A DNA stretch of 35,314 bases, from positions 1-35,314 of the forward strand of contig CAITQH010000201.1 in NCBI GenBank assembly GCA_903894475.1. Direction: 5' to 3'. This document shows positions 17,100 through 34,169 of this stretch, piece by piece. A program made the translations under genes and the position numbers. The stretch's first letter is position 1, and each line of letters starts with the position of its first letter. The notes under the pieces were generated by a model. That model was given only the letters and a program-made list of their open reading frames with translations, searched no databases and was not told the origin of the DNA. Origin of the DNA: an uncultured beta proteobacterium (GTDB lineage Bacteria; Pseudomonadota; Gammaproteobacteria; Burkholderiales; Burkholderiaceae_C).

Positions 17100-17783
17100 T
17101 CAGTGGCTGTCTTGGCCTGTCATTGGCACCGCCATGATGGGAATAACCACGCGTGGTTTGGCGGCTTTCTTGGCTGCGCGGGTTGCGGTCTTGCGTTGCC
17201 CCGGAAAGGCCAGCGCTTCAGTCAGCAGGTACGCGGCCTGTGCATACGACGTTGGACAAAGCGCAAAGCATTCCTGGCAGTCCCAGCATTCGTTTTTGGC
17301 GACTTCGGGGACGAACTTGATCTGGCGCACGGAGCCGTTGTCGAAGAAGCTGACAGCGTTCTTTTTCTTCACCTCGTTGCAGTAACGCACGCACAGTCCG
17401 CATAACACACAGAACGATGCCTCCTTCTCAAACCGGTTGCGGTCGGCGCCGTACTCCTCGGCCATCTTCACCAACTCGGGAGAATCTGGCGCGTGCGCCA
17501 TCAGTTCTTCGACCAGCACCTTGCGGATTTTGTCCACCTTCTCCGAGCGGGTGCGCACGATGATGTCTTTGGCGACCGGATAAAGGCAGGACACGACGTA
17601 ACTGGTCCAGCCGCGCGACTCCACCTCCACCATGCACAGGCGGCAGCCGCCATAGGCTTCTAGCTGTTCGTGATGGCACAGGGTGGGGATGTAGATGCCT
17701 GCCTGCTGTGCTGCCTGCAAAACCGTCATACCGGCTTCGGCCTTCACCTGCCGGTCGTCGATGGTCAAAACAATTTCAGTCAT
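17100..17783 (-). CDS. bamI: BamI-like iron-sulfur subunit (NuoG/HoxU type)
   Basis: This would be the electron-transfer subunit of the NADH-linked module of a class II benzoyl-CoA reductase complex. The 227-residue product has an N-terminal plant-type [2Fe-2S] domain (Cys36, Cys47, Cys50, Cys66; CHHEQLEAYGGCRLC) followed by two CxxCxxCxxxC [4Fe-4S] sites (CVLCGLCVRYC and CWDCQECFALC). It lacks the large molybdopterin-like domain of NuoG and so resembles HoxU-type short subunits. The tail is Lys/Ala-rich. It overlaps bamH by four bases (ATGA) and is the last gene of the run. The naming rests on its place in a complete bamB-I order; by itself it could serve any diaphorase. Confidence 0.82.
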   Translation of the reverse strand: MTEIVLTIDDRQVKAEAGMTVLQAAQQAGIYIPTLCHHEQLEAYGGCRLCMVEVESRGWTSYVVSCLYPVAKDIIVRTRSEKVDKIRKVLVEELMAHAPDSPELVKMAEEYGADRNRFEKEASFCVLCGLCVRYCNEVKKKNAVSFFDNGSVRQIKFVPEVAKNECWDCQECFALCPTSYAQAAYLLTEALAFPGQRKTATRAAKKAAKPRVVIPIMAVPMTGQDSH

Positions 17784-19432
17784 TTGGCGTCACTCCCGGC
17801 GGCAATGCGTGCTTCATACTCGGGCTTGAAATAGCGGAACATGCTTTTCAGCGGGTCGCCGGAGGTCTTGCCCAGTGCGCACAGGCTGGCCACGCCGGTC
17901 ACCTCGATCAGCTCCTGCAGGCGCTCAATGTCGCCGGCCTTGCCCTGACCTTCGGTGATGCGTGTCAGGATTTGCAGCATCTGCATCATGCCCTCGCGAC
18001 ACGGCACACACTTGCCACAGGATTCCTTGGTCAGGAAGTCCATCAGGTAGCGCGAGACTTCGACCATGTCGGTGTCTTCGTCCATCAACAGCAAGCCGCC
18101 GGCACCAATCGGTGCGCCCAGCTTGGACATGCCGTCAAAGTCCAGCGGCGCGTCGATCAGGTCCGCCGGAATCGAGCCGCCCATGGCGCCACCGAAATGG
18201 ATGGCCTTGAGCGTCTTGCCGTCACGTACACCGCCACCAATGTCATGCACCAGCGTGCGCAGCGGGGTGCCCATCGGCACTTCGACGATGCCGCTGTTCA
18301 CCACGTGACCCGAGAGCGAGACCAGCTTGGTGCCCTTGCTCTTCTCCGAGCCGATGCTGGTGAACCAGTCGGCACCCTTTTCTATGATCTGCGGCACGTT
18401 GGCCCAGGTCTCGACGTTGTTCAGGTTGCTCGGCTTGTCCCAGATGCCCGACACCGAGGTGCGGATGTACTTGGGCCTAGGTTCTGGTACGTTGCCTTCG
18501 ATCGAACGCATCAGCGCACTCGATTCACCGGAGACGAAGATGCCGACGTCAAAGTGCAGTTCGCATTCGAAGTCGAAGCCTGACCCGAGGATGTTCTTGC
18601 CCAGCAGGCCGTACTCGGCTGCCTGGGCCAGCGCGTTGCGCACATGCTTTTCCAGGAGCGGCATGTCGTGCCGGGTGTACATGAAGCCCTTTTGCGCGCC
18701 GATGGCGTAGGCACCGATGATCAGGCCTTCGAGGATTTTGTGCGGGTTGCCGGTGAGCATGGCGCGGTCCATGAAGGCGGCGGACTCGCCTTCGTGGCCG
18801 TTGACGATGACGTACTTGGTCTTCTCCGGCGCGTTGCGGGTCGTCTCCCACTTCAAACCGGCCGGAAAGCCGCCGCCGCCACGGCCACGCAGATTGGCTT
18901 TCTTGACTTCATCGAGCACCTGCTCCGGGCTCATCGTGGTCAAGGCCTTGACCAGCGCAGCGTAGCCGCCCACCGCCAGATAGTCGTCGATCTTCATCGG
19001 GTCTATCTTCGGGTTGTCGCCCATCAAAAGGCGCGTCTGGTGTTTGTAGAACGGCACTTCCTGCATGTGCACGGCCTTGGCGCCGGTGTTCGGATCCTTG
19101 TAGACCAGACGCTCGACCACTTCACCTTGGAGCGTGGCTTCGATGATCTCCGGTACATCGGCAGGGCTGACCTCGAAATAGCAGATGTCGCCCGGCGTGA
19201 CGACCACGTTCGGTCCCTTTTCGCAGTAGCCGTGGCAACCGGTGGTTCTCACCTCGATCCTGTCACCCAGCGTGGCAACCGCAGCGACAAACGCAGCCGC
19301 CACCGCCGCCGAGTCCTGGCCGTCGCAGGCCGCGCCAGCGCAGACCGCGATGCAGGGTTTGGCGCTGGAGCGCTTGGCCAGGATTTCTGACCTGAATTTT
19401 TCCAGCTCAGCGGCTGATTGCAACTTTGGCAT
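17780..19432 (-). CDS. bamH: BamH-like NADH-binding flavoprotein subunit (NuoF type)
   Basis: This subunit would carry FMN and an NAD(H) site in the Bam complex. The 550-residue product has an N-terminal thioredoxin-like [2Fe-2S] domain (Cys27/31/36, Cys66, Cys70), then the NuoF fold with the nucleotide loop GRGGGGFP (183-190) and the C-terminal [4Fe-4S] motif ESCGKCVPCR with Cys472, 475, 478 and distal Cys518. The segment normally reading NADEGDPGAFMDR in NuoF/HoxF is NGHEGESAAFMDR here. The frame is open upstream to 19669, but the ATG at 19432 is eight bases after the bamG stop and starts a typical sequence, so I chose it. It overlaps bamI. Confidence 0.85.
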   Translation of the reverse strand: MPKLQSAAELEKFRSEILAKRSSAKPCIAVCAGAACDGQDSAAVAAAFVAAVATLGDRIEVRTTGCHGYCEKGPNVVVTPGDICYFEVSPADVPEIIEATLQGEVVERLVYKDPNTGAKAVHMQEVPFYKHQTRLLMGDNPKIDPMKIDDYLAVGGYAALVKALTTMSPEQVLDEVKKANLRGRGGGGFPAGLKWETTRNAPEKTKYVIVNGHEGESAAFMDRAMLTGNPHKILEGLIIGAYAIGAQKGFMYTRHDMPLLEKHVRNALAQAAEYGLLGKNILGSGFDFECELHFDVGIFVSGESSALMRSIEGNVPEPRPKYIRTSVSGIWDKPSNLNNVETWANVPQIIEKGADWFTSIGSEKSKGTKLVSLSGHVVNSGIVEVPMGTPLRTLVHDIGGGVRDGKTLKAIHFGGAMGGSIPADLIDAPLDFDGMSKLGAPIGAGGLLLMDEDTDMVEVSRYLMDFLTKESCGKCVPCREGMMQMLQILTRITEGQGKAGDIERLQELIEVTGVASLCALGKTSGDPLKSMFRYFKPEYEARIAAGSDAK

Positions 19433-19440
19433 TGGATGAC

Positions 19441-19893
19441 CTACTCGTATTGTTTCAGGACGTCTTCGACCTTGTCCGGTGTCATCCGGCCATAGTGCTT
19501 GCCGTCGATGATCAGTTCGGGGGCGATGCTGCAACTGCCCAGACAGGCGCCGGTTGCAAAAGTAAATTTGGCATCGGCGTCGGTTTGCCCGTCCTGCAGG
19601 CCGGTCAGCTCCTCCACCTTGGCCTGCAGCCTGGCCGCACCGCGCAGGTGGCAGGTCATGCCGGTGCACACATGCACTTCGTGACGGCCTTTCGGCGTCA
19701 GGCTGAAAGTCTTGTAGAAGCTGGCGATCTGCATCACCTGGGCGAATGGCACCTGCAACGCGTCGGCCACCCGGTGCATGACCTCGCGGGGCAGCCAGTG
19801 GTTGGCATGCTGGATTTCCACCAGAGCGTGGATCAGCGAACTCGGCTGGCCCCGGTATTTCTCGATGATGGTCTTGATTTTTTCTTCGCTCAT
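19441..19893 (-). CDS. bamG: BamG-like [2Fe-2S] subunit (NuoE type)
   Basis: This 150-residue product is a NuoE-like thioredoxin-fold ferredoxin. A helical N-terminal part with HANHWLPREVMHRVADAL leads into a [2Fe-2S] domain whose ligands are the CTGMTC pair and the CLGSC pair (ATGACLGSCSIAPELIIDG). It would relay electrons between the flavin of BamH and the rest of the complex. It is separated from bamF upstream by 281 bases containing a repeat array and is followed closely by bamH. AGAGG lies about 11 bases before the ATG. Confidence 0.85.
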   Translation of the reverse strand: MSEEKIKTIIEKYRGQPSSLIHALVEIQHANHWLPREVMHRVADALQVPFAQVMQIASFYKTFSLTPKGRHEVHVCTGMTCHLRGAARLQAKVEELTGLQDGQTDADAKFTFATGACLGSCSIAPELIIDGKHYGRMTPDKVEDVLKQYE

Positions 19894-19983
19894 AGTACGG
19901 TTTGACCTCTGATTGCTTGTTGCGCCTTAGGTAGCGGGCAATTTGAAAACTAACGTTTTAGAAACGCCGGAAACACCGTCGTT

Positions 19984-20139
19984 GTCATGCCGGAATTGAT
20001 CCGGCATCCAGTAAGCGCGAACACTGGATTGCGGATCAAGTCCGCAATGACAAGCCAGGGGTTCGCAACGACAAACAGGATGTCCGCAACGACAAGCCAG
20101 GGGTTTGCAATGACAAACAGGATGTCCGAAATGACAAAC
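19984..20139. repeat. Palindromic repeat array 1 (bamF-bamG gap)
   Basis: Two hairpins stand side by side: ATGCCGGA/TCCGGCAT (19987-20007) and ATTGCGGA/TCCGCAAT (20028-20048), separated by CCAGT...ACTGG, which also pair. To the right, the 3' arm of the second hairpin recurs with a strict 21-base period starting at 20040, 20061, 20082, 20103 and 20124 (GTCCGCAATGACAA and variants). The linkers alternate (GCCAGGG, then ACAGGAT), giving a 42-base higher-order period. Only one left-hand unit (19984) is present. Confidence 0.9.
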
Positions 20140-20174
20140 GCTAATAGCCGATACATTTGAAATTTCCATCTTCC

Positions 20175-20945
20175 TCAGGCGGCCACCGCGACCTGTGCCT
20201 GCTTGCCGTGCAGACGGACTATGCCTTGCTCCGACAGTGCAAGCAGGTGCCGCGCTACTTCCGAATCCTGGACGCCGATTTTTGCCGCAATATCCTCGGT
20301 CGTCGTCACGTCGGCGCGCAGTGCACCCATGATGCGGCCCATGGTCAGCTTGTCGAGCACCAGTTCCTTGAACAGTGGTTCGTAGTCAGGTCTGGCAAAG
20401 AATTCCTTGTAACCATTTTCGGTCCGCTTGCTCACCCGAAAGCGTTCGCGCTCGACCAGCTTGAAGTAGGGCACCAAATCTGTTGCGGCCTTCAGGCCGT
20501 CGAGCAGACCAGCAACGTCGCGTCCTTCGCTTGAGCCAAAGGGACCCAGGGCTTTGATCTTGGCTCCGAACTCGTGCATGATCTCGGCGAAGCGTATGCC
20601 TTCACCGGCGGAGACCCATTCCAGGCGCAGCCGGTCCGGGTTGATGCCGATGTTCTCCAGGATGCGCTTGGCGACGAAGCTGTTGCCCAGGGCGTCGTAA
20701 TTGCCTTCGGGGTTGTAGTGACAGTCGCCCAGATGGCAGCCGCCGATAAACACGGCGTCCGCCTTCTTGGCAAAGGCTCGGAAGATGAACTCCAGATCGA
20801 CCCGGCCCGAGCACATCAGGCGGATCACGCGCAGATAGGGCGGATACTGAAAGCGCGAGACGCCAGCCAGATCGGCGCCGCCATAGCAGCACCAGTTGCA
20901 CAGAAAACCGACGATGACGGGTTTGAATTCAGAAGGGGATGCCAT
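20175..20945 (-). CDS. bamF: BamF-like MvhD-type subunit with C-terminal helix-turn-helix extension
   Basis: MvhD-type subunits link an electron-input module to HdrA-type flavoproteins through a [2Fe-2S] cluster. Residues 10-140 form that domain, with Cys16, Cys19 and Cys20 (FLCNWCCYGGADLAG), Cys45 (MCSGRVD) and the GGCHLGDCHY motif (Cys70, Cys75). Geobacter BamF has been reported as a selenoprotein; here every such position is Cys and the frame has no TGA. Residues 195-250 form a winged-helix-like segment (TTEDIAAKIGVQDSEVARHLLALSEQG is the core), making the protein longer than plain MvhD (about 140). It sits between arrays 1 and 2. Confidence 0.82.
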   Translation of the reverse strand: MASPSEFKPVIVGFLCNWCCYGGADLAGVSRFQYPPYLRVIRLMCSGRVDLEFIFRAFAKKADAVFIGGCHLGDCHYNPEGNYDALGNSFVAKRILENIGINPDRLRLEWVSAGEGIRFAEIMHEFGAKIKALGPFGSSEGRDVAGLLDGLKAATDLVPYFKLVERERFRVSKRTENGYKEFFARPDYEPLFKELVLDKLTMGRIMGALRADVTTTEDIAAKIGVQDSEVARHLLALSEQGIVRLHGKQAQVAVAA

Positions 20946-20980
20946 GCTTGATACCTTAACGTGAAATAACGGCTTTGGCT

Positions 20981-21114
20981 GTCATCCCGGACCCTGAAGT
21001 TGTCATCCCGGACTTGATCCGGGATCCAGTGCCAGGGGGCCATGGATTGCGGATCAAGTCCGCAATGACAAAGCAAGTGCCCGCAATGACAAAGCAAGGG
21101 TCCGCAATGACAAA
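20981..21114. repeat. Palindromic repeat array 2 (bamE-bamF gap)
   Basis: Left-type units (GTCATCCCGGAC) begin at 20981 and 21002; the second forms a hairpin with TCCGGGAT. A second hairpin ATTGCGGA/TCCGCAAT follows. Right-type units (GTCCGCAATGACAAAGCAAG and variants) start at 21058, 21079 and 21100. All spacings are exactly 21 bases. The layout is the same as the other arrays: two left and three right units. Confidence 0.9.
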
Positions 21115-21157
21115 CACTGAGAGTTCGTAAATTTCTGTCTCCCTTAAGTTGGTCTTT

Positions 21158-24100
21158 TCAGACCTCCGCAAGTGCGGCGTCAATCTGGACGAACACCTCG
21201 TCGTCCGTGTAGTGCGAAAGGCTGATGGCCGCGGTCGGACACTTGGCGACGCACAGGCCGTCGCCCTTGCACAGCACCGCATTGACCACTGCCTTCTTGC
21301 CACGCGGCGTATCCTCGAACGAGATGGCACCATAAGTGCAGACCGAGATGCAAGCGCCGCAGGACACGCAGTCCCTGGCGGACACAGCGCACACCGCGCC
21401 CGAGGCCACCACCGTGTCGTTTGACAGCAGGGTCAGAGCTCGTCCCGCTGCACCATAAGCCTGGGTGATGGTCTCCGACAGGTGCTTGGGATACTGCGCG
21501 GTGCCGCACAGGTAAACGCCTTCCGCAGCAAAGTCGACCGGCCGTAACTTGGCATGGGCTTCCTGGAAGAAGCCGTCCGGGCTCAGTGGCACTTTGAACA
21601 TGCGCCCAAGCTCGGCGGAACCGGCAGCAGGGATCACGGCCGCGGCCAGAATGATGGCATCGGCATCGAGCTCAAGCTTTTTGCCCAGAATCGGATCGGC
21701 TGCCGTGACGCGGATGAAGCTGCGTCCGCCTTGTTCGACGCTTTCGAGCTGTGGCTTGTCGTCCGCTTCGTAGCGGATGAACTTGACGTTCTGGTGCGAC
21801 GCCTCGAGGTAGTAATCCTCGCGGAAGCCGTAGGTCCGGATATCGCGGAACAGCACGTAGATTTCCACTTCGGGCTTGAGCGCCTTCATCTTCAAGGCGT
21901 TCTTCATGGTTCCGCTACAGCAGACGCGGGCGCAGTAGTTGCGGTCCTCGTTGCGGCAACCGACGCACTGAATCATCACCACGTTCTCGGCTGCCATCAG
22001 CTTTTCGTCCTGCTTGGCGAGTTTGCCTTCCATCTCCAGCAGCGTCATCACCTTGTCGCTCTTGCCGTACAGGTACTCGGTTGGCTTGTACTCGGCCGCG
22101 CCGGTGGCGATGATGGCGGCACCGTGTTTGATGGTGCGTACCCGGGCCTTGGACTTGACCGTGGTCGTGAAATTGCCAACGTAACCATCCACATGCGTTA
22201 TCAAAGCGTCCATGATGGCGTGGATCTTCGGGTGGCGATACACCTTTTTCTTGAGGTCCTTCAGGAAGCTCTGTACGTCCATCCCTTCGAGTGTGTAGTG
22301 CAGGCGGTTGGCCATGCCGCCCAAATCCGAGGCTTTCTCGATCAGGTAAGTCTCATAGCCCTGCTCGGCCAGGGTGTGGGCGCTGATCATGCCGGCCACA
22401 CCGCCGCCGATCACCAGTGCGGTCTTGTCCACCGGCAGCGAAAACTCGTCAAGTGGTTCGAGTATGCCGACCCGTGCCACTGACATGCGAACCAGATCCT
22501 TGGACTTGGCCGTTGCGGCTTCCTTCTCCTTGGAGTGCACCCAGGAGCAGTGCTCGCGGATGTTGGCCATGTCGATGTAGTACTGGTTCACGCCAGCTTC
22601 GCGCAAGGTGTCGCGAAACAGTGGCTCGAGCGTGCGCGGCGTGCAGGCGGCGATCACCACCCGGTTCAGCCCCTTGTCGCGGATGGTGTCGGAGATCGCC
22701 TGGGCGGTATTGGTGGCGCAGGCGAACAGGGAATCTTCGACGTGTATCACGCCCGGCAAGCCCAGGGCGTATTGCGCGACATCTGGCACATCGACGACGC
22801 TGCCGATGTTGGCACCGCAGCGACAGACGAAGACGCCGATCTTGGCTTCGTCTTGCGAGACATCCTTTTCCACCGGATAGACCCGGTCCGTCGAGAGCTG
22901 GCCGCGCCGCGACTTGAGCAGGTTGGCGACCTGGGCGCCAGCGCCGCTGGCCCCCATCACCGACTCGGGAATGTCCATCGGTCCCTGGAAGGCGCCGCTG
23001 GTGAAAATGCCCGGACGGCTGGTCTGCAGCGGGTTGAAGGGCTCAACCTTGCAAAAGCCGTGATGGTTGAGTTCAATGCCAAAGACTTTGGAAAAACGCT
23101 GGGCATCCTTGGGCGGTGCCAGACCGACCGAGAGCACCACCAGTTCGAAGAATTCCTCGACCACCCCGTCCGCTGTGATGTAGCGGATCGAGACGTCACC
23201 GGTCACCGGGTCTTCGCTGCCGACAGAGACGTAGCTGCGCACGAAATGCACGTCGGGCAGATTCTGCGCGCGCTGGTAGAAGCGCTCAAAGTCCTTGCCG
23301 TAGGAGCGAATGTCGTTGTGAAAAATCTTGGCGTGCATATCCGGCAGGTGGTCCTTGGCCAGGATCACCTGCTTCTGCGTGTACGAGCAGCACACGGCAG
23401 AGCAGTAGCTGTTGGCGCCTTCGGGGTTAACCTGGCGCGATCCGACGCAGTGAATCCAGGCGATCTTGTGCGGATGCTTCTTGTCCGAGGGCCGCAGGAT
23501 CTGCCCCTCGTGCGGACCGGTGGAACACAGCAGGCGCTCGAAGTCCATACTGGTGACGACGTTCTTGAACACGCCGTAGCCGTAATCGTTGCGCGGCAGG
23601 GGGTTGTAGGTTTCGTAGCCGGGCGACAGGATGATGGCGCCGACCTTGACCTTGATTTTTTCGGGTCGCTGGCTGAAGTCGATGGCGTCGTTTTCACAGA
23701 CGGCCTGGCAGATATTGCAGGTTTTGTCCTTCAGGAACAGGCAGCTGTCGTCGATGTAAGTGACCAGCGGTACGGCTTGTGCAAAGTAGATGTGCACCGC
23801 CTTGTTCAGCGACAGCTCCTGATTGAAGGGGTCGGGGATTTTGACCGGGCAGCGCTCGACGCAGGCGGTGCATCCCGTGCATTTGTCGGCGTTGACGTAG
23901 CGCGGTTTTTTCAGCAGCGTGACGGTGAAGTCTCCGGGCTGGCCCTCGACGCTGTCGACGTCGGTGTAGGTCATCAGCTGGATGTTGGGCGCCCGGTCGG
24001 TTTCGATGAATTTCGGCGACTCGATGCACATCGAGCAGTCATTGGTCGGGAAGGTCTTGTCGAGCTGCGACATCTTGCCGCCGATGGTCGGCGACTTCTC

Positions 24101-24256
24101 GACCAGATAGACCTTGTAACCATCCGTTGACAGGTCGAGCGCGGACTGGATGCCGCTGATGCCGCCACCGATGACCATCACGTCGCCCATGTTGTCGTCC
24201 GCCGGACGAAACACGTTCTGCGTGTTCCATTGCTGCTGTAAGAGTCCAAATTCCAC
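21158..24256 (-). CDS. bamE: BamE-like double HdrA flavo-iron-sulfur protein
   Basis: HdrA proteins carry FAD and several [4Fe-4S] clusters and are the bifurcating centre of heterodisulfide reductase-type complexes. This 1032-residue product is two HdrA-like halves fused. The first has an FAD motif GGGISG (30-35), an HdrA Cys region (Cys74, Cys77) and [4Fe-4S] sites CTGCTACVERC (126-136) and CNICQAVC (180-187). The second has VIGGGVAG (616-622) and CVGCRNE...CARVCC (764-780). Two ferredoxin motifs end the protein, CVSCGACISVC (963-973) and CKGDGLCVAKC (996-1006). Double HdrA fits BamE of the class II benzoyl-CoA reductase complex. Fourteen bases separate it from bamD, with GAGGA as ribosome site. 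Confidence 0.88.
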   Translation of the reverse strand: MEFGLLQQQWNTQNVFRPADDNMGDVMVIGGGISGIQSALDLSTDGYKVYLVEKSPTIGGKMSQLDKTFPTNDCSMCIESPKFIETDRAPNIQLMTYTDVDSVEGQPGDFTVTLLKKPRYVNADKCTGCTACVERCPVKIPDPFNQELSLNKAVHIYFAQAVPLVTYIDDSCLFLKDKTCNICQAVCENDAIDFSQRPEKIKVKVGAIILSPGYETYNPLPRNDYGYGVFKNVVTSMDFERLLCSTGPHEGQILRPSDKKHPHKIAWIHCVGSRQVNPEGANSYCSAVCCSYTQKQVILAKDHLPDMHAKIFHNDIRSYGKDFERFYQRAQNLPDVHFVRSYVSVGSEDPVTGDVSIRYITADGVVEEFFELVVLSVGLAPPKDAQRFSKVFGIELNHHGFCKVEPFNPLQTSRPGIFTSGAFQGPMDIPESVMGASGAGAQVANLLKSRRGQLSTDRVYPVEKDVSQDEAKIGVFVCRCGANIGSVVDVPDVAQYALGLPGVIHVEDSLFACATNTAQAISDTIRDKGLNRVVIAACTPRTLEPLFRDTLREAGVNQYYIDMANIREHCSWVHSKEKEAATAKSKDLVRMSVARVGILEPLDEFSLPVDKTALVIGGGVAGMISAHTLAEQGYETYLIEKASDLGGMANRLHYTLEGMDVQSFLKDLKKKVYRHPKIHAIMDALITHVDGYVGNFTTTVKSKARVRTIKHGAAIIATGAAEYKPTEYLYGKSDKVMTLLEMEGKLAKQDEKLMAAENVVMIQCVGCRNEDRNYCARVCCSGTMKNALKMKALKPEVEIYVLFRDIRTYGFREDYYLEASHQNVKFIRYEADDKPQLESVEQGGRSFIRVTAADPILGKKLELDADAIILAAAVIPAAGSAELGRMFKVPLSPDGFFQEAHAKLRPVDFAAEGVYLCGTAQYPKHLSETITQAYGAAGRALTLLSNDTVVASGAVCAVSARDCVSCGACISVCTYGAISFEDTPRGKKAVVNAVLCKGDGLCVAKCPTAAISLSHYTDDEVFVQIDAALAEV

Positions 24257-24270
24257 GTTGGTGTCCTCGG

Positions 24271-25425
24271 CTAGATTGCTTCGCGGATGATTTCGGTGAT
24301 GTCCAAGATAGAGATCGAGGCACCGCCGTCAGCACGGCCCAAGCGACTGTCTTCGAAATTGGTGATGCAGTAAGGACAGGATGTCACCAGGACCTGCGCG
24401 CCGGTCACGGCCGCCTGCTCCAGGCGCACGTCGGAGAAGCGCTCGCCCTTGGGCGTTTCCATCCAGATGCGACCGCCGCCACCGCCGCAGCAGAAGCTGT
24501 TCTTGCGGTTCTCGGCCATCTCGGTCAATTGCAGTCCCGGCACGCTCTTGAGTGCTTCGCGTGGCTGATCGAAGATGCCGTTGTGACGGCCCAGGTAGCA
24601 GGGATCGTGATAGGTGACGTTCTTGGCGACTTCCTTGGTCAGCTTCAAGCGGCCCTCGCCAATCAACTGGTGGATGAATTCGGTGATGTGCACCACCTCG
24701 AAATGCACCATGAACTCGGGGTACTCGTTCTTGAAGCTGTGATAGCAGTGCGGCGACGAAACCAGGATCTTCTTGACACCGTTGCCGACCAGTTGACCAA
24801 TGTTCTGCCGCGCCAGCGTGCGAAACAATTTCTCATCGCCGGTCTTGCGGATGCTCTCTCCGCAGCAACTCTCGTCGGTGCCGAGGATGCCGAAGTTCAC
24901 GCCCGCCGCCTGCAGTATCTCGACCGTGGCCTTGGCGATCTTCTTGCCGCGCGGATCGTACGAAAGGTAGCAGCCGGGGGAGTACATGACTTCCATGCCC
25001 TCCTCGAAACGCTTGACACCCAAGCCGTTGGCCCAGTCGGCCCGCTTGGAGCGCGCTTCGCCGAACGGATTGCCCTCAGCCCGCAGGCTGGCAGCCACAC
25101 CCGGAATTGGCGAGGCGCCGCCGGCGAAGACGTCATACTCCGTGGCGACGCGGCGCAGCGCGACGCCGGACTCGATCTGTTTGACGTCGCGCGGACAGAC
25201 CTGCGGACATTTGCCGCAAGTGGTGCAGCGCCAGATGTCCTCGCTGTCGATCTCGGTCAGGCCGAAAGTGGCTTCGCGCACGAGTTTGCGCATGCTGAAT
25301 TTGGAAACCCTGTTCCACGGGCAGACGGTATCGCACATGCCGCACTGGTAACAGGATTTGAAAGCATCGCCACCGGCTGCCTTGATGGCATCGATGATTT
25401 CTTTTTGGGGGGCTACGGTTTCCAT
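24271..25425 (-). CDS. bamD: BamD-like HdrD-type iron-sulfur protein
   Basis: This 384-residue product resembles HdrD/GlpC-type proteins. Two [4Fe-4S] motifs lie near the N terminus (CYQCGMCDTVCP, Cys25/28/31/35, and CTTCGKCPQVCP, Cys67/70/73/77). Two CCG domains follow: one around DESCCGE and SSPHCYHS, the other around DPCYLGRH, FCCGGGGG and SCPYC. CCG domains bind noncubane or [4Fe-4S] clusters in heterodisulfide reductases. In the Bam complex it would connect BamBC with the HdrA-like BamE. It starts three bases after the bamC stop, with GAAGG inside the end of bamC. Confidence 0.87.
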   Translation of the reverse strand: METVAPQKEIIDAIKAAGGDAFKSCYQCGMCDTVCPWNRVSKFSMRKLVREATFGLTEIDSEDIWRCTTCGKCPQVCPRDVKQIESGVALRRVATEYDVFAGGASPIPGVAASLRAEGNPFGEARSKRADWANGLGVKRFEEGMEVMYSPGCYLSYDPRGKKIAKATVEILQAAGVNFGILGTDESCCGESIRKTGDEKLFRTLARQNIGQLVGNGVKKILVSSPHCYHSFKNEYPEFMVHFEVVHITEFIHQLIGEGRLKLTKEVAKNVTYHDPCYLGRHNGIFDQPREALKSVPGLQLTEMAENRKNSFCCGGGGGRIWMETPKGERFSDVRLEQAAVTGAQVLVTSCPYCITNFEDSRLGRADGGASISILDITEIIREAI

Positions 25426-25428
25426 GCC

Positions 25429-25968
25429 TCAGGCCTTCGACATTCTTGCCAGGGTGTCCAGCACTTGCTGCAAACCGTGTTTATCTATCATGGCGCCGAT
25501 GCCGATCTCGACATCGCCGAGCTTGGGCTGATCCTCTTCGACTTCCTCTTCGCGCTCGACGTAAATCAGGGCCTCGGCATGGCACCACTCGACGCACTTG
25601 GGCTGGTCCAGCGCCGGTGTCTCCTCACACATGTCGCACTTGAGCGGCAGGCCCGAATCGGGTTCCTTGAACAGGTCGCGCGAAGGGCAGGAGGCGCGGC
25701 AGAAATCGCATTCGTTGTATTCCTTGCCGTCGATGATGTACTTGTCGCGCCCGGTGCATTCCGACTCGGTGTACTCGCCGGCGTAGACCGGCAGGTAGAT
25801 GTCGCGCAGCGGCAGGCGCACGATGCGGATGCGTGAACGCGCCGGGTTGTTGCTGCTGTAGCGCGGCGTTGCGTGCCACGAAGAACAGATCACCTCGCAG
25901 GCCTTGCAGCCGTTGCATTTGTCGGCGTCAATGGTGATCGACTTGACGATTTTCTTGACCTTAGCCAT
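25429..25968 (-). CDS. bamC: BamC-like three-cluster ferredoxin subunit
   Basis: This 179-residue product is a HycB/NrfC-like electron-transfer protein. Cys clusters are CNGCKACEVIC (18-28), Cys71, CDFCRASC (87-94) and CDMC...CVEWC (111-129), enough for three [4Fe-4S] clusters as known for BamC. It would bring electrons to the tungsten and iron-sulfur site of BamB. The frame extends upstream into bamB, but the ATG at 25968 overlaps the bamB stop by eight bases and starts the recognisable sequence (MAKVKKIVKSITID), so I chose it. The C-terminal 50 residues are acidic and outside the ferredoxin fold. Confidence 0.88.
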   Translation of the reverse strand: MAKVKKIVKSITIDADKCNGCKACEVICSSWHATPRYSSNNPARSRIRIVRLPLRDIYLPVYAGEYTESECTGRDKYIIDGKEYNECDFCRASCPSRDLFKEPDSGLPLKCDMCEETPALDQPKCVEWCHAEALIYVEREEEVEEDQPKLGDVEIGIGAMIDKHGLQQVLDTLARMSKA

Positions 25969-27922
25969 GGCCGTAAATCCCCTTCTGCTCAAATTCTTCG
26001 GCGACGAAATCCATTTCAAGGTCGTGCAGCGATTCCTTGGTCGGAATGCCCTGATCGTTGAATCCCTTGAGCTTGTAGTACTGGTCCAGTAACTCCTTCT
26101 CCAGATCGGGGAAGCGCTTCCTCCAGTGGTCCTCCGGTGGCTTGTCGTCGACCCGGCGCAGGCCACGGCGCACATTGAGTGCGCGCATCAGGGTGCGGGT
26201 ACGCGTTGCTGACTTCCACACATCGTCCTTGCTCATCTTGATGCCGGTGCCGGCGGTGACGAACTCCGCATAGTTGTGGATGTGGTAGGGCGGCTTGAGC
26301 GGGAACGATGAGAGACCGGCGCACATGCCCAGGGCGTCGTCGATGTAGTGCATCTTCTCCATCCAGTCGACGATCTCGCAACTGGCCTCGACCGTCGGGT
26401 AGTAGGGATTGGACATTTCGCCGCGTGGCTCCCAATCGACGTAGTACTTCTTGAACTTCTCGTCGGGCACCTGGAACCAGTCCTTGACAAACTCTTCGCG
26501 CAACTCGCGCGTGGCAAAAGGCTCCTGCGGAAACTGGCCTTCGATCTGCGTGATGTTGATCTTCTCGCCGGTCGAGTACATCAGGTAGTAGACCGGATTG
26601 AGCATGCCGAGCTTGAGCGGCAACTGCTCGTGCTTCTTGATGGTGTTGTGATCGTACTTTTCCGCGCCCTTGCCGATGCGACGCGCGGCCCAGTAGGTAC
26701 CGTCGGCCAGGTAGTCGCCGATGCCTTCACGGCGCACCATCTTTTCCAGCAGGTAGTAAAAGCGTCCCTCGGTATCCTCGGGCATACCGGGGAAGTCTTC
26801 CATGGTCAGGATGCCGGCCTCCAGCAGTTCCAGGCCGAAAGCCATCGCCTGCGGTGCAGAGAAACCGTCGACGCCATACTCGGTGGCTTTTTGCGCTATC
26901 TTGAAACCAAAGTCCAGGTCCGAGAAGGCTGCCATGGTGTAGGTCAGCTTCGAATAGCACTTCATCATGTAGGTTGGCAGACCCGGCACCGAGATGGTGG
27001 CGCCGCACTTCATCGGGCAGTTGTGGCAACTGATCAGGCGTGTGCGCACGTTCTCCTGGGTTTCCTTCCACTTCTGCTCGATTTCATGGGTCCAGAAATC
27101 CTTGCGCCGGGTGCGTGAATTGCCCCAGGTGAAGTTGGTGGTGTGCCATTCTTCATCGACGATGGCCATTTCCTGCGGTGAACCCAGGCCCTGCAGAATC
27201 GGCGGCACACCCTGGATCGGATGGTCGGCGCGATATTTGATGTACTTGAGAACGCCGTCGCACAGTTCCATGTACTTGACAGGGTCAGCGACGTTGATGT
27301 CCTTGGTGCCGCGCACGGCGACGGCCTTCAGGCCCTTGTCGCCCATCACGGCACCAATGCCGCCGCGGCTTGCGCTGGAGCGCCCCTGCTCGATCGAAGC
27401 AAAGAAGACACGGTTCTCGCCGGCCAGGCCAATGGCAGCGACCTGAATGTCGGGGTCTTTCAGTTCCCGGCGGATGGCCTCGGAGGTTTCGGTGGCGCCC
27501 AGGCCCTTGAGGTGCGAGGCGTCACGGATTTCAACCTTGTCGTTATTGATCCACAGGTAAACCAGTTCCTCGGACTTGCCGCTGATGACGATCTTGTCGT
27601 AGCCGGCGTACTTGAGTTCGGGTGCAAAGAAGCCGCCCATCATGGAATACGCCATCAGCTTGGTTTGCGGCGAGATGGTCGAGACGATGGTCCGGTTGCT
27701 GCCTGGTGCCGCCGTCCCACACAGTAGGCCGCTGCTGAAGATCAGCAGGTTTTCAGGGGAGAAAGCATCCGTCTCGGCTGGAACCCGGTCCCACATGATC
27801 TTGGCGTTGGTGCCGAGCCCACCCATGAACAACCTGGTGTCGTTCGGGTCGGTCTCGACCCGGTCGATGCTGCCTCGCGTGAGGTCCACTTCCAGGTCAA
27901 AGCCTATTTCTCCGTAACGCAT
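25961..27922 (-). CDS. bamB: BamB-like tungsten-containing benzoyl-CoA reductase catalytic subunit
   Basis: BamB is the aldehyde:ferredoxin oxidoreductase-family subunit that reduces benzoyl-CoA to cyclohexa-1,5-diene-1-carbonyl-CoA without ATP. The product has 653 residues, which is the length I recall for Geobacter metallireducens BamB. Probable [4Fe-4S] ligands are Cys299, Cys302, Cys306 (CHNCPMKC) and Cys534. Glu251, Glu257, His260 and Cys322 fall at the same numbers that I remember for active-site residues and the tungsten-ligating Cys of the solved BamB. The N-terminal region (1-205) is the tungstopterin-binding fold. It is 64 bases downstream of dch and overlaps bamC. A plain aldehyde oxidoreductase is unlikely given these residues and neighbours. 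Confidence 0.9.
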   Translation of the reverse strand: MRYGEIGFDLEVDLTRGSIDRVETDPNDTRLFMGGLGTNAKIMWDRVPAETDAFSPENLLIFSSGLLCGTAAPGSNRTIVSTISPQTKLMAYSMMGGFFAPELKYAGYDKIVISGKSEELVYLWINNDKVEIRDASHLKGLGATETSEAIRRELKDPDIQVAAIGLAGENRVFFASIEQGRSSASRGGIGAVMGDKGLKAVAVRGTKDINVADPVKYMELCDGVLKYIKYRADHPIQGVPPILQGLGSPQEMAIVDEEWHTTNFTWGNSRTRRKDFWTHEIEQKWKETQENVRTRLISCHNCPMKCGATISVPGLPTYMMKCYSKLTYTMAAFSDLDFGFKIAQKATEYGVDGFSAPQAMAFGLELLEAGILTMEDFPGMPEDTEGRFYYLLEKMVRREGIGDYLADGTYWAARRIGKGAEKYDHNTIKKHEQLPLKLGMLNPVYYLMYSTGEKINITQIEGQFPQEPFATRELREEFVKDWFQVPDEKFKKYYVDWEPRGEMSNPYYPTVEASCEIVDWMEKMHYIDDALGMCAGLSSFPLKPPYHIHNYAEFVTAGTGIKMSKDDVWKSATRTRTLMRALNVRRGLRRVDDKPPEDHWRKRFPDLEKELLDQYYKLKGFNDQGIPTKESLHDLEMDFVAEEFEQKGIYGHG

Positions 27923-28769: not shown

Positions 28770-28790
28770 ATCGATTCAATTCCTGAGTCT

Positions 28791-28987
28791 GTCATTCCGG
28801 ACTCGACAGCTGTCATCCCGGACCCCGAGTTTGTCATCCCGGACCCCGAGTTTGTCATCCCGGACCTGATCCGGGATCCAGTGCCTCGCGAACACTGGAT
28901 TGCGGATCGAGTCCGCAATGACAAGGCAAGAGTCCGCAATGACAAGGCAAAAGTCCGCAATGACAAGGCAAAAGTCCGCAGTGACAC
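28791..28987. repeat. Palindromic repeat array 3, fully symmetric (oah-dch gap)
   Basis: Four left-type units (GTCATCCCGGAC and variants) start at 28791, 28812, 28833 and 28854, and four right-type units (GTCCGCAATGACAAGGC and variants) start at 28911, 28932, 28953 and 28974, all 21 bases apart. The innermost units belong to two central hairpins, ATCCCGGA/TCCGGGAT and ATTGCGGA/TCCGCAAT, linked by CCAGTG...CACTGG. The array is symmetric, and left and right units are imperfect inverted copies of each other. It fills most of the 245-base gap. Confidence 0.92.
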
Positions 28988-29014
28988 CATGAGTGTTACC
29001 GGCCATCGCTGCGT

Positions 29015-30151: not shown

Positions 30152-30287
30152 GTCATTGCGTGCAAAAGGGCTGTCATTGCGGGCAGAAAAGGGTTGTCAT
30201 GCCGGACTCGATCCGGCATCCATGCCTTCTTGGGCGCACTGGATTGCGGGTCGAGCCCGCAATGACAACGAGCGGCGGCAATGACAG
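30152..30287. repeat. Palindromic repeat array 4 (had-oah gap)
   Basis: Left-type units start at 30152, 30173 and 30196. The last forms the hairpin ATGCCGGA/TCCGGCAT. The second hairpin ATTGCGGG/CCCGCAAT follows after a longer linker, with one further degenerate right unit (GCAATGAC repeated at 30259 and 30278). The pattern is as in arrays 1-3 but more diverged, with irregular spacings of 23 and 19. Confidence 0.85.
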
Positions 30288-30313
30288 CTAAATGGGTCAC
30301 GTGTTCGCATTCA

Positions 30314-31384
30314 TCACGCCGGTATCAGCACAGCACGCCGCTTGATCTCGCGGTGATGTACGGCAGGAAAGATCTGGTTGATGTTGTCAAGCGGGTGCTC
30401 TTCAACAAAAGGTGCCAGTTGCACCTTGCCTTCGAGCACCAGATCGAGTGCGGCCGGGTAGTACTCCGGCGGGCAGCCCCAGTTGCCCAAAGCGCGCGCG
30501 TCGAATGCCATCAGGTTGGACAGGCGGACTTCCACACGGTCCATGGTGAAGCCGACCACCGACAGGGTAGCACCATGCACCAGCAGGCCAAAGGCCGACA
30601 ACTGCCCGGCGGCGGTGCCGGAACATTCGAAAATCTGCCACTCGGTGCTGCGCAAGCCGTTCTGCTTGGCAAAGGCCTGAATCGCGGCCTTCAGGGCCTT
30701 GGTGTCGTGGTTGCGGGCGTTCAGTGTGAGTGACGCGCCGCCATGCGCTGCGATGGCGGCGAGTTTTTCGTCATCGACGTCGATCGCCACCACCTTGGCA
30801 CCGAAGGCGCGCGCCACCTGAACGCAGTAGCCGCCAACGCCACCGGCGCCGATCACAACCGCCAGACTGCCAGGTGTGACGCCAGCACGACGCACTGCCT
30901 GGTAAGGCGTGGTGAGCGCGTCGGCGATGATGGAAACTTGCGCCAGATTCAAATCGATGGCGGCAAGGCGCTTTTCGTCGACTTCGCACAGGCCGCGACC
31001 GGGCACCACAATGTGCGAAGCAAAACCACCTTGAATGTCGTTGCCGGGCATTTTTTGCGCGCGGCAGATCGGCTCCAGTCCGCGCTTGCACAAATCACAT
31101 TCACCGCAGGGCAGCACGGCCGGGATGATCACCGCTTTGCCGAGCCAGTCTTGCGCACCGGCGCCGGCTGCCACCACGTGGCCGCTGATCTCGTGCCCGA
31201 GGGTCAGGGGCAGGGCGATATTGGTCCGCACACCATCGTAGTAATAGCCCAGATCGGTGTGACAGACGCCGCATCCGGCAATCGCCACCACCACTTCTCC
31301 GGCCGCGGCTACAGCGCTGAAGGCGATCCGCTCGAACGGCTCACCCGGCTTGTTCATTTGCCAACGGTAGGCTTGGATGCTCAT
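30314..31384 (-). CDS. had: 6-hydroxycyclohex-1-ene-1-carbonyl-CoA dehydrogenase
   Basis: Had oxidises the 6-hydroxy group with NAD, giving the 6-oxo compound used by Oah. The 356-residue product is a zinc-dependent medium-chain dehydrogenase. It has the catalytic zinc Cys in [15 protein letters not shown], the GHEISG segment with the zinc His, the structural-zinc lobe [15 protein letters not shown] and the Rossmann motif [11 protein letters not shown]. The Had assignment rests on these residues together with its position beside oah and dch. AGGAGA lies eight bases before the ATG. It is the first gene of the 14-kb minus-strand run and divergent from korA. Confidence 0.9.
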
Positions 31385-31560
31385 GTCTTGTCTCCTGCTT
31401 AAAGATGGATAGAGTGGACTTTTTTTAATTGTCGTATATTAGTACCTAAATACCATCAATGCCAGAAAAAGTTTTGAAAATCGATGAACGGCGGCTGATT
31501 TGAGTCAAACTAAACACCTTTTGGTCGGTCCCGCAAGGTTTTAAATCGAAGGAGAGCAAC
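31385..31560. promoter_or_regulatory. Divergent control region between had and korA
   Basis: This AT-rich 176-base gap should hold promoters for both the had-bam run and the kor genes. On the minus strand TAATAT, with CTGGCA 18 bases upstream, is a possible sigma-70 pair for had. On the plus strand TTTGAGTCAAA (31499-31509) is a perfect palindrome, and TATTAG-TAC-CTAAATA (about 31437-31452) is a near palindrome; either could be an operator. I found no good FNR or TGCA-type BzdR site. Confidence 0.5.
31549..31554 (+). promoter_or_regulatory. Ribosome binding site deciding the TTG start of korA
   Basis: AAGGAG stands six bases before TTG at 31561. No ATG occurs at a suitable place nearby, and the domain homology begins within ten residues, so the TTG start is well supported. 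Confidence 0.7.
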
Positions 31561-33318
31561 TTGCAAGAACAAATTTCGGCCCCAACCAGTGTTTCAATAG
31601 CACTGGCGGGTAGCGGTGGCAGCGGCGTCATGACCGCTGGCACTGTGCTGCTGGCTGCTGCCGCCAAGGCGGGTGCCTATGGACTGATGGTACGCACCAG
31701 CGGGCCGCAGATTCGGGGTGGCGAGGCAGCCGCACTGGTGCGCCTGGGGCCGCAGCCGATCAGTTCGCTCGATGACGGATTTGACCTGTTGCTGGCGATT
31801 GACTGGCAGAACGTCAATCGCTTTGCCGACGAGATCGTGCTCGGAGCGCGCAGCGTGCTCATCGGTGACCCCGACGAAGGTGAGGCGCCGGAGGTATTCA
31901 AGGCCACGGGGGCGCGCTACATTCCCCTTAGCCTGAAGAAGATGGCCAAGGAAATTCCGGGTTGCTGGATCAATATGCTGGCGCTGGGGATCTCCGGCAC
32001 GCTGGCCGGCCTGCCACTGCAGGCCTTGCAGGATGCGGTGCGCGAGTCGTGGAAGAAGCCGGACACGCTGGAGGCCAATCTGCTGGCAGTGGCCAGAGGT
32101 GCGCAAGCTGCTGCGGGTGTGGCCGAGCAACTGGCGAAAGATGGCGGACCGATGGCGCAACTGCAAGACGCTGGCGCATCCACTACCAAGCGCTGGATGA
32201 TCAGTGGCAACGAAGCTGCCGGTCTGGGCGCGATCCGCGGTGGCGTGCGTTTTGTCGCGGCCTATCCGATCACACCGGCAACCGAGGTGCTGGAGTGGCT
32301 GGCGCCGCAACTGATCAAGGTCGGCGGCACCTTGTTGCAGGCCGAGGACGAATTGGCGTCCATCAATATGATCATCGGTGCCTCGTACGGCGGCGTGCCT
32401 TCGCTGACTGCCACGGCAGGCCCGGGACTGGCCCTGATGACCGAGGCGATTGGTCTGGCCGTCGCAGCCGAGGTTCCGATTGTCATCGTGGATGTGATGC
32501 GCGGTGGTCCGTCCACCGGTATTCCAGCCAAGAGCGAACAGAGTGACCTCTCGTTTGCGGTGAGTGGCCTGCATGGTGATGCACCGCGGCTGGTCGTGGC
32601 ACCGAGCTCGATCTCGGATTGCCTGGGCGCGACCCAGTGGGCGGTGCAGTTGGCCGAGGCCCTGCAGGCGCCAGCGATTGTGCTGTCGGACCAGTACATG
32701 GGACAGTCGCGCGCCATCATCGACCGCCCACTTGACAGCAGTGGTGTCACACAACGGCTGACAGCGCCAGCCAACGCACCGGACTACAAGCGCTACCGCA
32801 ACACGGACTCCGGTGTATCACCCATGGCCATTCCGGGAACAGAAGGCGTGAGTTATACGGCCGACGGCCTGGAACATTCCGAAGCCGGTATTCCCAGCAG
32901 CCAGTCCAAGGACCATGTGCTGCAACTCAACAAGCGCGAGCGCAAGCTCGCGCTGCACGACTACGGTCCGTACTGGGCTGACATAGAAGGCGATGCCGAT
33001 GCCGTGGTGATCACGTTTGGTTCAAGCTCGGGTCCGGTGCGTGAGGCTGTGGCCCGCGCCCGCGCCATGGGTGTCAGTCTGCGTCTGATGGTATTGCGTC
33101 TGCTGGCACCGGCCCGACCGGAGCAGATGGCCGCAGCGCTGCAGGGCGTCAAACATGTCATCGTGGTGGAGCAGAACCACGGTGCCCAGTTGTACCGTTA
33201 CCTGCGCGCCTGGTACGACTTCCCGCAGCGCCCCGCCAGCTACCACCGACCCGGGCCCTTGCCGCTGCGTCCCGGAGAATTATTGAACGCCCTGCTTGAC
33301 TGGAGGAAAGCACAATGA
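31561..33318 (+). CDS. korA: 2-oxoacid:ferredoxin oxidoreductase, fused gamma-alpha subunit (KorA-like)
   Basis: KorAB oxidises a 2-oxoacid, probably 2-oxoglutarate, to the acyl-CoA and reduces ferredoxin. The 585-residue product joins a gamma domain (about residues 10-190, with LAGSGGSGVMTAGTVL and RTSGPQIRGGEAAALV) to an alpha domain (from about 208). The alpha part carries AAYPITPATEVLEWLA, the EDELASINMIIGASYGG segment and ATAGPGLALMTEAIGLAV. In Thauera a korAB pair stands beside the class I benzoyl-CoA reductase genes and supplies its ferredoxin. The TTG start has a strong ribosome site, and korB overlaps by four bases. Substrate specificity cannot be read from sequence alone. Confidence 0.88.
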   Translation: MQEQISAPTSVSIALAGSGGSGVMTAGTVLLAAAAKAGAYGLMVRTSGPQIRGGEAAALVRLGPQPISSLDDGFDLLLAIDWQNVNRFADEIVLGARSVLIGDPDEGEAPEVFKATGARYIPLSLKKMAKEIPGCWINMLALGISGTLAGLPLQALQDAVRESWKKPDTLEANLLAVARGAQAAAGVAEQLAKDGGPMAQLQDAGASTTKRWMISGNEAAGLGAIRGGVRFVAAYPITPATEVLEWLAPQLIKVGGTLLQAEDELASINMIIGASYGGVPSLTATAGPGLALMTEAIGLAVAAEVPIVIVDVMRGGPSTGIPAKSEQSDLSFAVSGLHGDAPRLVVAPSSISDCLGATQWAVQLAEALQAPAIVLSDQYMGQSRAIIDRPLDSSGVTQRLTAPANAPDYKRYRNTDSGVSPMAIPGTEGVSYTADGLEHSEAGIPSSQSKDHVLQLNKRERKLALHDYGPYWADIEGDADAVVITFGSSSGPVREAVARARAMGVSLRLMVLRLLAPARPEQMAAALQGVKHVIVVEQNHGAQLYRYLRAWYDFPQRPASYHRPGPLPLRPGELLNALLDWRKAQ

Positions 33319-34169
33319 ACGATATTGTCAACGAAGTGGCAGAAGTACCCGTCAAGGTTCTGACCGCTGCCAACTTCAAGTCGAGCTACAAGCCGATCTG
33401 GTGCCCTGGCTGTGGCGACTACACGGTGCTGAGTTCAGTCACCAAGGCGCTGGCCATCATGGGCGTGCCACCGAAAGATTGCGCAGTGGTTTCCGGCATT
33501 GGCTGCTCATCGCGTATTCCGGCTTACACCACCTGCTACGGTTTTCACGGCGTGCATGGCCGCTCGCTGGCTGCTGCCACCGGCCTCAAGGTGGCGCGGC
33601 CTGATTTGCAAGTGCTGGTGGCGGGTGGCGATGGCGACGGTTATTCGATCGGCGGCAACCACTTTCTGCATGCCTGCCGGCGCAATGTGGACATGACTTA
33701 CCTGGTGATGGACAACCATGTTTACGGCATGACCAAAGGCCAGCCCTCGCCCACGACCGAACCAGATTGGGATTCCAAGCTTTCGCCCGGCGGCACCGGT
33801 GTGCGCGTCTTCAACCCGCCGGTCGTGGCGCTGGCCTCGGGCGCGAACTTCGTGGCGCGGGCCTTTGCCGGCGACTTGCACGGCACGGCCGACATCATTG
33901 CCAAGGCAATGCAACACCCCGGCTTTTCCTTTGTCGAAATACTGAGCCCTTGTGTGACCTTCCGCCCGGAGCAACGTGACTGGCGCAAGCTGGTGCGACC
34001 AGCCCCGGTGCAAGCCACCGACGATGCCGGACGCGCCGCCCGGCGCCTCATGACCGATGACGGCCTGAATATCGGTGTTCTGTACGCTGGCAACCGGGCG
34101 CCGTACCAGGCCTGTGTGCGCGAGAGTCGGGGCAGTGTGGCCGAACTGGAAGCGGAGTTTGCGCTATGA
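33315..34169 (+). CDS. korB: 2-oxoacid:ferredoxin oxidoreductase, beta subunit (KorB-like)
   Basis: This is the thiamine pyrophosphate-binding beta subunit paired with KorA. The 284-residue product has the cluster motif WCPGCGDY (Cys30, Cys33), Cys64 in GIGCSSRIPAY and a later Cys in EILSPCVTF, enough for one [4Fe-4S] cluster. The TPP/Mg motif is GGDGDGYSIGGNHFLHA (from residue 104), followed by MDNHVYGMTKGQPSPT. It overlaps korA (ATGA) and the following ferritin-like gene (ATGA), so all three should be made together. Length and motifs agree with two-subunit Kor enzymes. Confidence 0.9.
   Translation: MNDIVNEVAEVPVKVLTAANFKSSYKPIWCPGCGDYTVLSSVTKALAIMGVPPKDCAVVSGIGCSSRIPAYTTCYGFHGVHGRSLAAATGLKVARPDLQVLVAGGDGDGYSIGGNHFLHACRRNVDMTYLVMDNHVYGMTKGQPSPTTEPDWDSKLSPGGTGVRVFNPPVVALASGANFVARAFAGDLHGTADIIAKAMQHPGFSFVEILSPCVTFRPEQRDWRKLVRPAPVQATDDAGRAARRLMTDDGLNIGVLYAGNRAPYQACVRESRGSVAELEAEFAL

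Follow-up and report, generated by a model that had tools for sequence, protein, structure and literature searches.

A class II benzoyl-CoA reductase gene set at the apparent class I place of a Rhodoferax-like operon

Introduction

How does the gene set of a class II benzoyl-coenzyme A (benzoyl-CoA) reductase come to stand in a betaproteobacterial genome, within an operon of the class I type? The question is raised by contig CAITQH010000201.1 of an uncultured betaproteobacterium (assembly GCA_903894475.1), a stretch of 35,314 bp, called the window here, in which eight genes, bamB to bamI, follow the pathway genes had, oah, and dch.

Class II reductases are described mostly from strict anaerobes and class I enzymes from facultative ones (PMC5400083, PMC5378359, PMC7701123; citations throughout refer to excerpts of the articles named), and two further sources tie class II wholly or mostly to strict anaerobes (PMC5852087, PMC12016498). 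The Geobacter enzyme is treated in PMC13328260, and bam sets are recorded in metagenome-assembled genomes (MAGs) of Chloroflexota (PMC11362221). Among Betaproteobacteria, Thauera has the gene order had-oah-dch-bcrCBAD-fdx (PMC6449761), the excerpted text on Dechloromonas aromatica gives it no benzoyl-CoA reductase (PMC2907700), and Georgfuchsia toluolica, described as strictly anaerobic, degrades aromatic compounds anaerobically with what is reported to be a class I enzyme (PMC9765128). The open-access literature searched gave no account of class II reductases from Betaproteobacteria; subscription papers lay mostly outside the search.

The first-pass annotation of this DNA proposed that class II had replaced class I within a Thauera-type block, leaving the organism with a route independent of adenosine triphosphate (ATP). 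Oah ancestry and gene order uphold the replacement at the operon place, but not in the genome, where bcrCBAD lies on another contig. We consider it likely that a Rhodoferax-like facultative anaerobe carries its central pathway for anaerobic benzoyl-CoA breakdown in the window, and that a bamB-I set acquired from outside took the operon place of an ancestral bcrCBAD there.

Results and Discussion

The Host Genome and the Locus

The host is a Rhodoferax-like Comamonadaceae MAG from freshwater, a draft of 5.20 Mb in 536 contigs (98.49% complete, 7.08% contamination), of which C201 is the window. By RpoB the MAG belongs to the Rhodoferax group of the Comamonadaceae, with identities to the window's genome of 99.5% (Erken MAG), 99.2% (PowLak16), 97.1% (Rhodoferax STA_46), 93.2% (palsa), and 91.4% (CG12). 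The search found no RpoB in six of 30 genomes, and two rows of the RpoB tree (G224, L040) were wrong-strand frames and were disregarded. The Kiruna MAG (L024) is 90% identical to the window at fba-purC.

Between 31384 and 17100 the minus strand carries had, oah, dch, and bamB-C-D-E-F-G-H-I in that order (bamB-I spanning 17100-27922); korAB and a rubrerythrin-domain gene are divergent. Features of the window are as follows.

27922 to 25961, minus strand: bamB, tungsten aldehyde ferredoxin oxidoreductase (AOR)-family catalytic subunit, AFOR_N/AFOR_C domains
25968 to 25429, minus strand: bamC, 179 amino acids, [4Fe-4S] ferredoxin type
25425 to 24271, minus strand: bamD, HdrB/C-like; CCG/Fer4 domains, two CCG stretches
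24256 to 21158, minus strand: bamE, 1032 amino acids, HdrA-like flavoprotein with two FAD/NAD-binding stretches
20945 to 20175, minus strand: bamF, FlpD/MvhD-like; frame unbroken, using cysteines, no in-frame TGA
19893 to 19441, minus strand: bamG, NuoE-like 2Fe-2S protein, 150 amino acids; 2Fe-2S thioredoxin-like domain
19432 to 17780, minus strand: bamH, NuoF-like; an ATG giving 550 amino acids, the frame length in relative L219
17783 to 17100, minus strand: bamI, NuoG-N/HoxU-like iron-sulfur subunit; Fer2/NuoG-N-like domain match
28769 to 27987, minus strand: dch, cyclohexa-1,5-dienecarbonyl-CoA hydratase; TIGR03189, 374.6 bits against a cut-off of 292.5
30118 to 29015, minus strand: oah, TIGR03200, 614.4 bits against a cut-off of 464.5; the genome's only match above cut-off
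31384 to 30314, minus strand: had, 6-hydroxycyclohex-1-ene-1-carbonyl-CoA dehydrogenase; TIGR03201, 567.5 bits against a cut-off of 338.7
31434 to 31453, no strand assigned: operator-like motif RGTACYNNNWTAC, two overlapping opposite-strand matches in the divergent had/korA promoter region
31561 to 33318, plus strand: korA, 2-oxoacid:acceptor oxidoreductase alpha subunit; TIGR03710, 548.6 bits against a subfamily cut-off of 482.8
33315 to 34169, plus strand: korB, 2-oxoacid:acceptor oxidoreductase beta subunit; TIGR02177, 259 bits, slightly below the cut-off of 261.9
34166 to 34702, plus strand: rubrerythrin/ferritin-like gene after korB; homologues adjoin korB in class I operons L180, L182, and L190

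The eight bam genes all have open frames and run from B to I, and the identities of had, oah, dch, and kor were scored against NCBIfam cut-offs; open frames, domains, and scores thus confirm the gene order, the preceding had, oah, and dch, and the divergent korAB that had been read from the letters. The starts of bamC (25968) and bamH (19432), set from the translation and relative L219, are the most likely ones. BamH has an additional weak thioredoxin-like 2Fe-2S match, below cut-off.

bamB-I in the Place of bcrCBAD

A search of 399 genomes of the order gave Oah above cut-off in 11, counting that of the window. Of the other ten, nine have bcrC after dch (oah-dch-bcrC) and one has a contig that ends past oah; had precedes oah in eight of the ten. 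Class I operons of the form had-oah-dch-bcr, with korA or korAB divergent, also occur in four bam-carrying MAGs: complete in Ja1, split over contigs in AHI15 and Pavin62, and in two copies in MAG26, one cut in bcrB and the other in korA.

In the window and in six further loci (L022, L023, L024, L026, L029, and L031), bamB follows dch instead. The bam set reaches bamI in five of these seven class II operons (the contig ends in bamE in L023 and in bamD in L024), and had is on the same contig in five. Divergent, adjacent korAB is seen in the window, L024, and L026, and korA stands beside had on a second Erken contig (L179). The window thus has the traits of a class I-type operon, namely the had-oah-dch order, divergent korAB, and an Oah of the class I-operon clade, together with a rubrerythrin-domain gene like that of three class I loci and a promoter motif found in 12 of 13 class I operons. 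It departs from that type in having bamB-I downstream of dch, where bcrCBAD would stand, and in that no ferredoxin gene is seen in the block. As read from gene order and ancestry, the locus is a putative module swap in which class II bamB-I occupies the operon place of class I bcrCBAD, a replacement within the operon and not in the genome.

Ancestry and Probable Transfer between Families

Oah of the class II operons falls within the class I-operon clade (support 97 in the Shimodaira-Hasegawa-like approximate likelihood ratio test, SH-aLRT). The 21 betaproteobacterial rows of BamB form one clade, with SH-aLRT 99 in a first, quick tree of 86 rows, which carried a long-branch warning between a paralogue and the rest, and 100/100 in a second. 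Since Oah lies in the class I-operon clade and BamB in a betaproteobacterial clade of its own, the two halves of the operon differ in origin. The description of the block as betaproteobacterial and Thauera-type holds for gene order (as given in PMC6449761) and for the grouping of Oah with class I operons of the same order, in a tree with no Thauera or Azoarcus sequences identified by name among its rows.

In Sterolibacteriaceae the bam genes stand alone, and Oah is divergent in kind and located elsewhere; had, oah, and dch are absent from the 1.3 to 10 kb upstream of eight stand-alone bam loci (L025, L027, L028, L030, L032, L034, L036, L037). Identity between the window's genome and Sulfuritalea E14 is 75.3% in RpoB and 94.3% in BamB, and the Comamonadaceae BamB rows form a group with L025, L027, and L028 at 100/99. 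A single clade of Sterolibacteriaceae BamB was rejected by the approximately unbiased (AU) test (p-AU 0.0018 with ten rows; 0.010 with the six rows placed by RpoB). The first test included L030, L033, and L036, all without RpoB, and the second excluded L035, whose bin has two RpoB genes in different clades; both were run after the first BamB tree was known, with groups named from RpoB and titles. The branching of Rhodoferax BamB among Sterolibacteriaceae points to transfer between families, implying that the bam module passed from one to another.

Synonymous divergence from the window is lower for bam than for had, oah, dch, and kor in STA_46 (0.29-0.48 vs 0.58-0.94) and in CG12 (0.53-0.89 vs 0.97-1.46), and in Kiruna the two sets overlap (0.12-0.54 and 0.20-0.75). 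These values, which are uncorrected for codon bias, would allow bam to have arrived later than the rest of the operon.

Conservation and Distribution of BamB

BamB aligns without gaps to the Geobacter protein (PDB 4z3w_A) over residues 1-651, with 471 of 651 positions identical (72.4%). All 21 betaproteobacterial BamB rows and the 60 others compared keep Glu251, His260, Cys299, Cys302, Cys306, Cys322, and Cys534 without exception. We take Cys322 to be the tungsten ligand and Glu251 and His260 to be active-site residues. Position 255 differs, being Val or Ala in 20 of the 21 betaproteobacterial rows vs His in 48 of the 60 others. In its eight subunits, its BamB, and these seven residues the system resembles the Geobacter class II enzyme, from which it is set apart by a Comamonadaceae host, a bin with bcrCBAD and aerobic boxB, and the position of bam inside a class I-type operon. 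Ratios of nonsynonymous to synonymous substitution (dN/dS) of 0.02-0.21 indicate purifying selection on the bam genes.

A scan of named genomes confirmed 289 relatives, of which the best 80 were compared. Twenty (L022-L041) have BamB 78-100% identical to that of the window; 17 are titled betaproteobacterial, and L030, L033, and L041, titled only Proteobacteria, fall within the same BamB clade. The other 60, at 72-76% identity, are by title mostly Thermodesulfobacteriota or Deltaproteobacteria, with some Bacteroidota, Bacillota, Acidobacteria, Chloroflexi, and others. BamB is rare near the host: in the family, two of 399 genomes reach E 1e-100, that of the window and another with just the 58% paralogue, and in the class two of 369 reach 1e-60, again that of the window and one with the paralogue. 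The genome search for class I genes and tungstate uptake that the first-pass annotation had called for yielded bcrCBAD and, for uptake (TupA only), a TupA-like protein cut by a contig end, at 172.5 bits against a cut-off of 400.

A Shared Operator-Like Motif

The motif RGTACYNNNWTAC was drawn by aligning ten had promoters and counted as exact matches within 300 bases upstream. It occurs twice, overlapping, at 31434-31453 of the window (0.01 expected). It precedes had in 12 of 13 class I and four of six class II operons, and also the relocated bcrC in all three cases (the window's genome, Kiruna, and STA_46); the background was 30 among 3000 300-mers taken at random from these loci, which are partly redundant. 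Among promoters not used for drawing, it is exact in seven of eight class I operons (L230-L234, L236-L238; L231 lacks it), in Erken (L179), and before the three bcrC genes. It was found before none of nine stand-alone bamB genes of L025-L038 with enough upstream DNA; for bamB of L039-L041 it is exact in one of three, with one mismatch in two. The distribution suggests that one regulator acts on both reductases via the motif. Some bcr-like genes of a third type, described below, also have it: the match is exact in one of three sets, and the palsa set carries the motif. Of two matches before bamB in other phyla, one is the Geobacteraceae locus L091, which has the motif before oah too.

A scan of the ten had promoters with what we take to be the FNR consensus gave sites that beat nearly all shuffles in three (Ja1, 0 of 300; AHI15 and palsa, 1 of 300 each). 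An FNR site before the window's had was rejected, its best site being beaten by 54 of 300 shuffles. An Rrf2-domain gene was seen near the motif in L097. We assume that BgeR belongs to the Rrf2 family. An Rrf2/BgeR-type protein is perhaps the motif's regulator, as a lead only, no regulator gene having been identified in the window. The description of BgeR in PMC7324539 is of a protein that represses benzoate genes. BzdR/BoxR sites are TGCA repeats, and the source that describes them gives none before the bcr operon of Thauera sp. MZ1T (PMC6449761), so the motif is not theirs.

Class I and Box Genes in the Same Genomes

As first reported, the window has no class I genes: no bcr or bzdO match was found in it, and both PF06050 matches of the genome lie on contig C267. 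There bcrC, B, A, and D stand in a row, each above its equivalog cut-off, next to an alpha/beta hydrolase gene. Kiruna and STA_46 are arranged alike, with Bcr proteins 91-99% identical, and dN/dS of 0.02-0.10 indicates purifying selection. The suggestion that the organism had lost class I is contradicted by this intact set, and its reliance on an ATP-independent route is not supported. A functional class I reductase elsewhere, with bam genes not induced by aromatics, had been named as what would refute the first interpretation; the first half of this is now seen, at the level of genes only.

Among the 20 bam carriers (L022-L041), BcrB is above cut-off in eight (in one more it is split over two contigs and under cut-off), and BzdO of the bzd type in three further carriers. 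Neither type was found in eight, an absence that is weak evidence given that MAG completeness is not given. E14 and palsa, among those eight, have a bcr-like set under cut-off (BcrB 32-33%, BcrC 35-36% identical). Such a third set, with two activase-type subunits, was seen in SKS1, E14, and palsa (L111, L112, L113; BcrB 32-33%, BcrC 35-37%). A search of 23 genomes gave the aerobic marker boxB above cut-off in 22, namely that of the window, 19 of the 20 carriers, G332, and G766; in CG12 and palsa boxB lies on the bam contig. In CG12 (L217, 2622-8430), bamI is followed on the same contig by an alpha/beta hydrolase gene, boxC, boxB, boxA, and a phenylacetate-CoA ligase gene; the hydrolase is 79% identical to the one beside the relocated bcrC of the window's genome.

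The ends of the bam and bcr contigs of STA_46 (L186 1-202, L185 1-202) share 202 bases, 97.5% identical and inverted, and may be neighbours or share a repeat. A Bacteroidales contig, JAUXWT010000085.1 (L053, 4935-21900), carries bamB-I and bcrCBAD like the window's genome, unlike which it has both sets divergent, about 270 bases apart, on one contig and in another phylum by title; its BcrA is below the equivalog cut-off, the other three are above, and oah and had are nearby.

Several observations weigh against the reading of the window as a module swap within a working pathway. Class I loci L235 and L239 have no had beside oah, L029 and L031 have had without korAB beside it, and the block shows no ferredoxin gene, unlike the Thauera order (PMC6449761). 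The seven class II Oah rows form one group with only 74% support, the Comamonadaceae BamB rows' own group has 87/96, and Kiruna, for which the search found no RpoB, is placed by BamB, Oah, and purC only. The motif totals include the ten source promoters (eight exact, palsa with one mismatch, CG12 with two, at L189 and L188), two Sterolibacterium MAGs have no copy of the motif before bcrC (0 of 2), and only two of 60 bamB genes of other phyla have an exact one upstream. No betaproteobacterial bin has an above-cut-off class I match on its bam contig, so the co-occurrence of both classes depends on binning; the carriers count as MAGs by title or fragmentation, and most of the work may fall to the class I genes.

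That last point leads to the alternative that best survives, although we consider it unlikely: class I would be the working benzoyl-CoA reductase, and bam accessory, serving another aryl-CoA ester or hardly expressed. The intact bcrCBAD in the same MAG, the motif before its bcrC, and the substitution at BamB residue 255 speak for it. In CG12 and palsa, in contrast, the operon carries class II, and neither TIGR02260 nor TIGR03191 has a match above cut-off in either genome, so that bam may be their only benzoyl-CoA reductase, although palsa has the bcr-like set (BcrB 32%, BcrC 36%) and both are MAGs of completeness not given. The seven conserved BamB residues, the position of bam first behind had-oah-dch, and strong purifying selection likewise speak for a working class II enzyme.

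A binning or assembly artefact, by which bam genes of a strict anaerobe were joined or binned with a betaproteobacterium, is very improbable. All data are from MAGs, this bin has 7.08% contamination, no other contig shows the bamI-purC junction, and C130 carries a second purC piece. Against this, oah-dch-bamB stand together in the window and six named MAG contigs, whose BamB all fall in one betaproteobacterial clade apart from those of the anaerobes, and in CG12 and palsa boxB is on the same contig; for the operon itself the artefact is largely refuted. There is scarcely any chance that the whole had-oah-dch-bam pathway arrived in one piece from an anaerobe with nothing replaced. In the window these genes do lie next to one another and point the same way. 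Against this, Oah clusters with the class I operons that share its gene order and not with the tree's eight rows from other sources, and eight bam clusters stand alone without had, oah, or dch upstream.

Predicted Metabolism and Significance

By the established biochemistry of its homologues, tungsten-pterin BamB with BamC would reduce benzoyl-CoA to the 1,5-dienoyl-CoA without ATP, and BamD-I would provide electron entry and bifurcation. KorAB would oxidize 2-oxoglutarate to yield reduced ferredoxin, and the dienoyl-CoA would be hydrated by Dch, the product oxidized by Had, and the ring opened by Oah. From boxB we infer a facultative lifestyle, and the two reductases would presumably be used under different energy or redox conditions. 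A bolder form of this proposal is tentative: the cell would have three benzoyl-CoA routes (Box, class I, and class II), with both reductases under one operator, a class II enzyme from another family having taken the class I promoter and place, and would use a fast, ATP-costly reductase or a thrifty one according to redox and energy state.

A swap at one operon place, with both reductases in one draft genome behind the same motif, would break the rule that divides the classes between strict and facultative anaerobes. It would offer a natural experiment on whether oxygen tolerance, ATP cost, or electron supply governs the choice of reductase, and the motif is a candidate operator for a bcr-type operon. 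The locus also bears on benzoate reduction in Rhodoferax, a question that PMC2755013 leaves open. R. ferrireducens, of the same genus group, is predicted by its metabolic model to grow on benzoate with Fe(III), and the authors reported that class I genes were missing and that bam-like genes were scattered, with no cluster (PMC2755013). For surveys the locus is a warning that bcr or bamB alone is unsafe as a marker of aromatic degraders.

BamB Paralogues and Neighbouring Sequences

A BamB paralogue (BamB2), 58% identical, lies on the host's own contig C232 (L008, 371-2302) beside a MarR-type regulator gene and a salicylyl-CoA 5-hydroxylase-like gene. A role for it as a second class II enzyme is not supported: residue 251 is Thr or Trp, in place of Glu251, in the four paralogues compared (L008, L198, L229, L039), and the two other genes of C232 are not bam genes. 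L198 (G332, a same-class genome, 98% complete with 0% contamination) has a full bam set with a BamB2-type paralogue, and L229 (G766, of the window's own family) has bamH-bamI-bamB2 at a contig start. A plasmid location was also rejected, as 31 plasmid records match BamB at 31.9% identity at best, and none of 59 records matching Oah does so above 80% of its length.

At the other end of the bam set, bamI abuts the purC 3' end (16770-17100), a junction seen in this contig alone. A second 3' piece of purC, 240 bases and 93% identical, is on C130 (L223, 11617-11856) on the trx-purE-purK side, and Kiruna and STA_46 have purC without bam beside it. The C130 piece suggests that a mobile element may have inserted the block at the 3' end of purC, a reading we do not claim, since the presence of two strains in the bin would account for it equally well.

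Palindromic repeats with 21-base units (19981-20144, 20978-21120, 28788-28994, and 30193-30268) occupy the intergenic spaces of the had-oah-dch and bamE-bamF-bamG stretches, and STA_46 has a palindromic element of the same sort between bamE and bamD.

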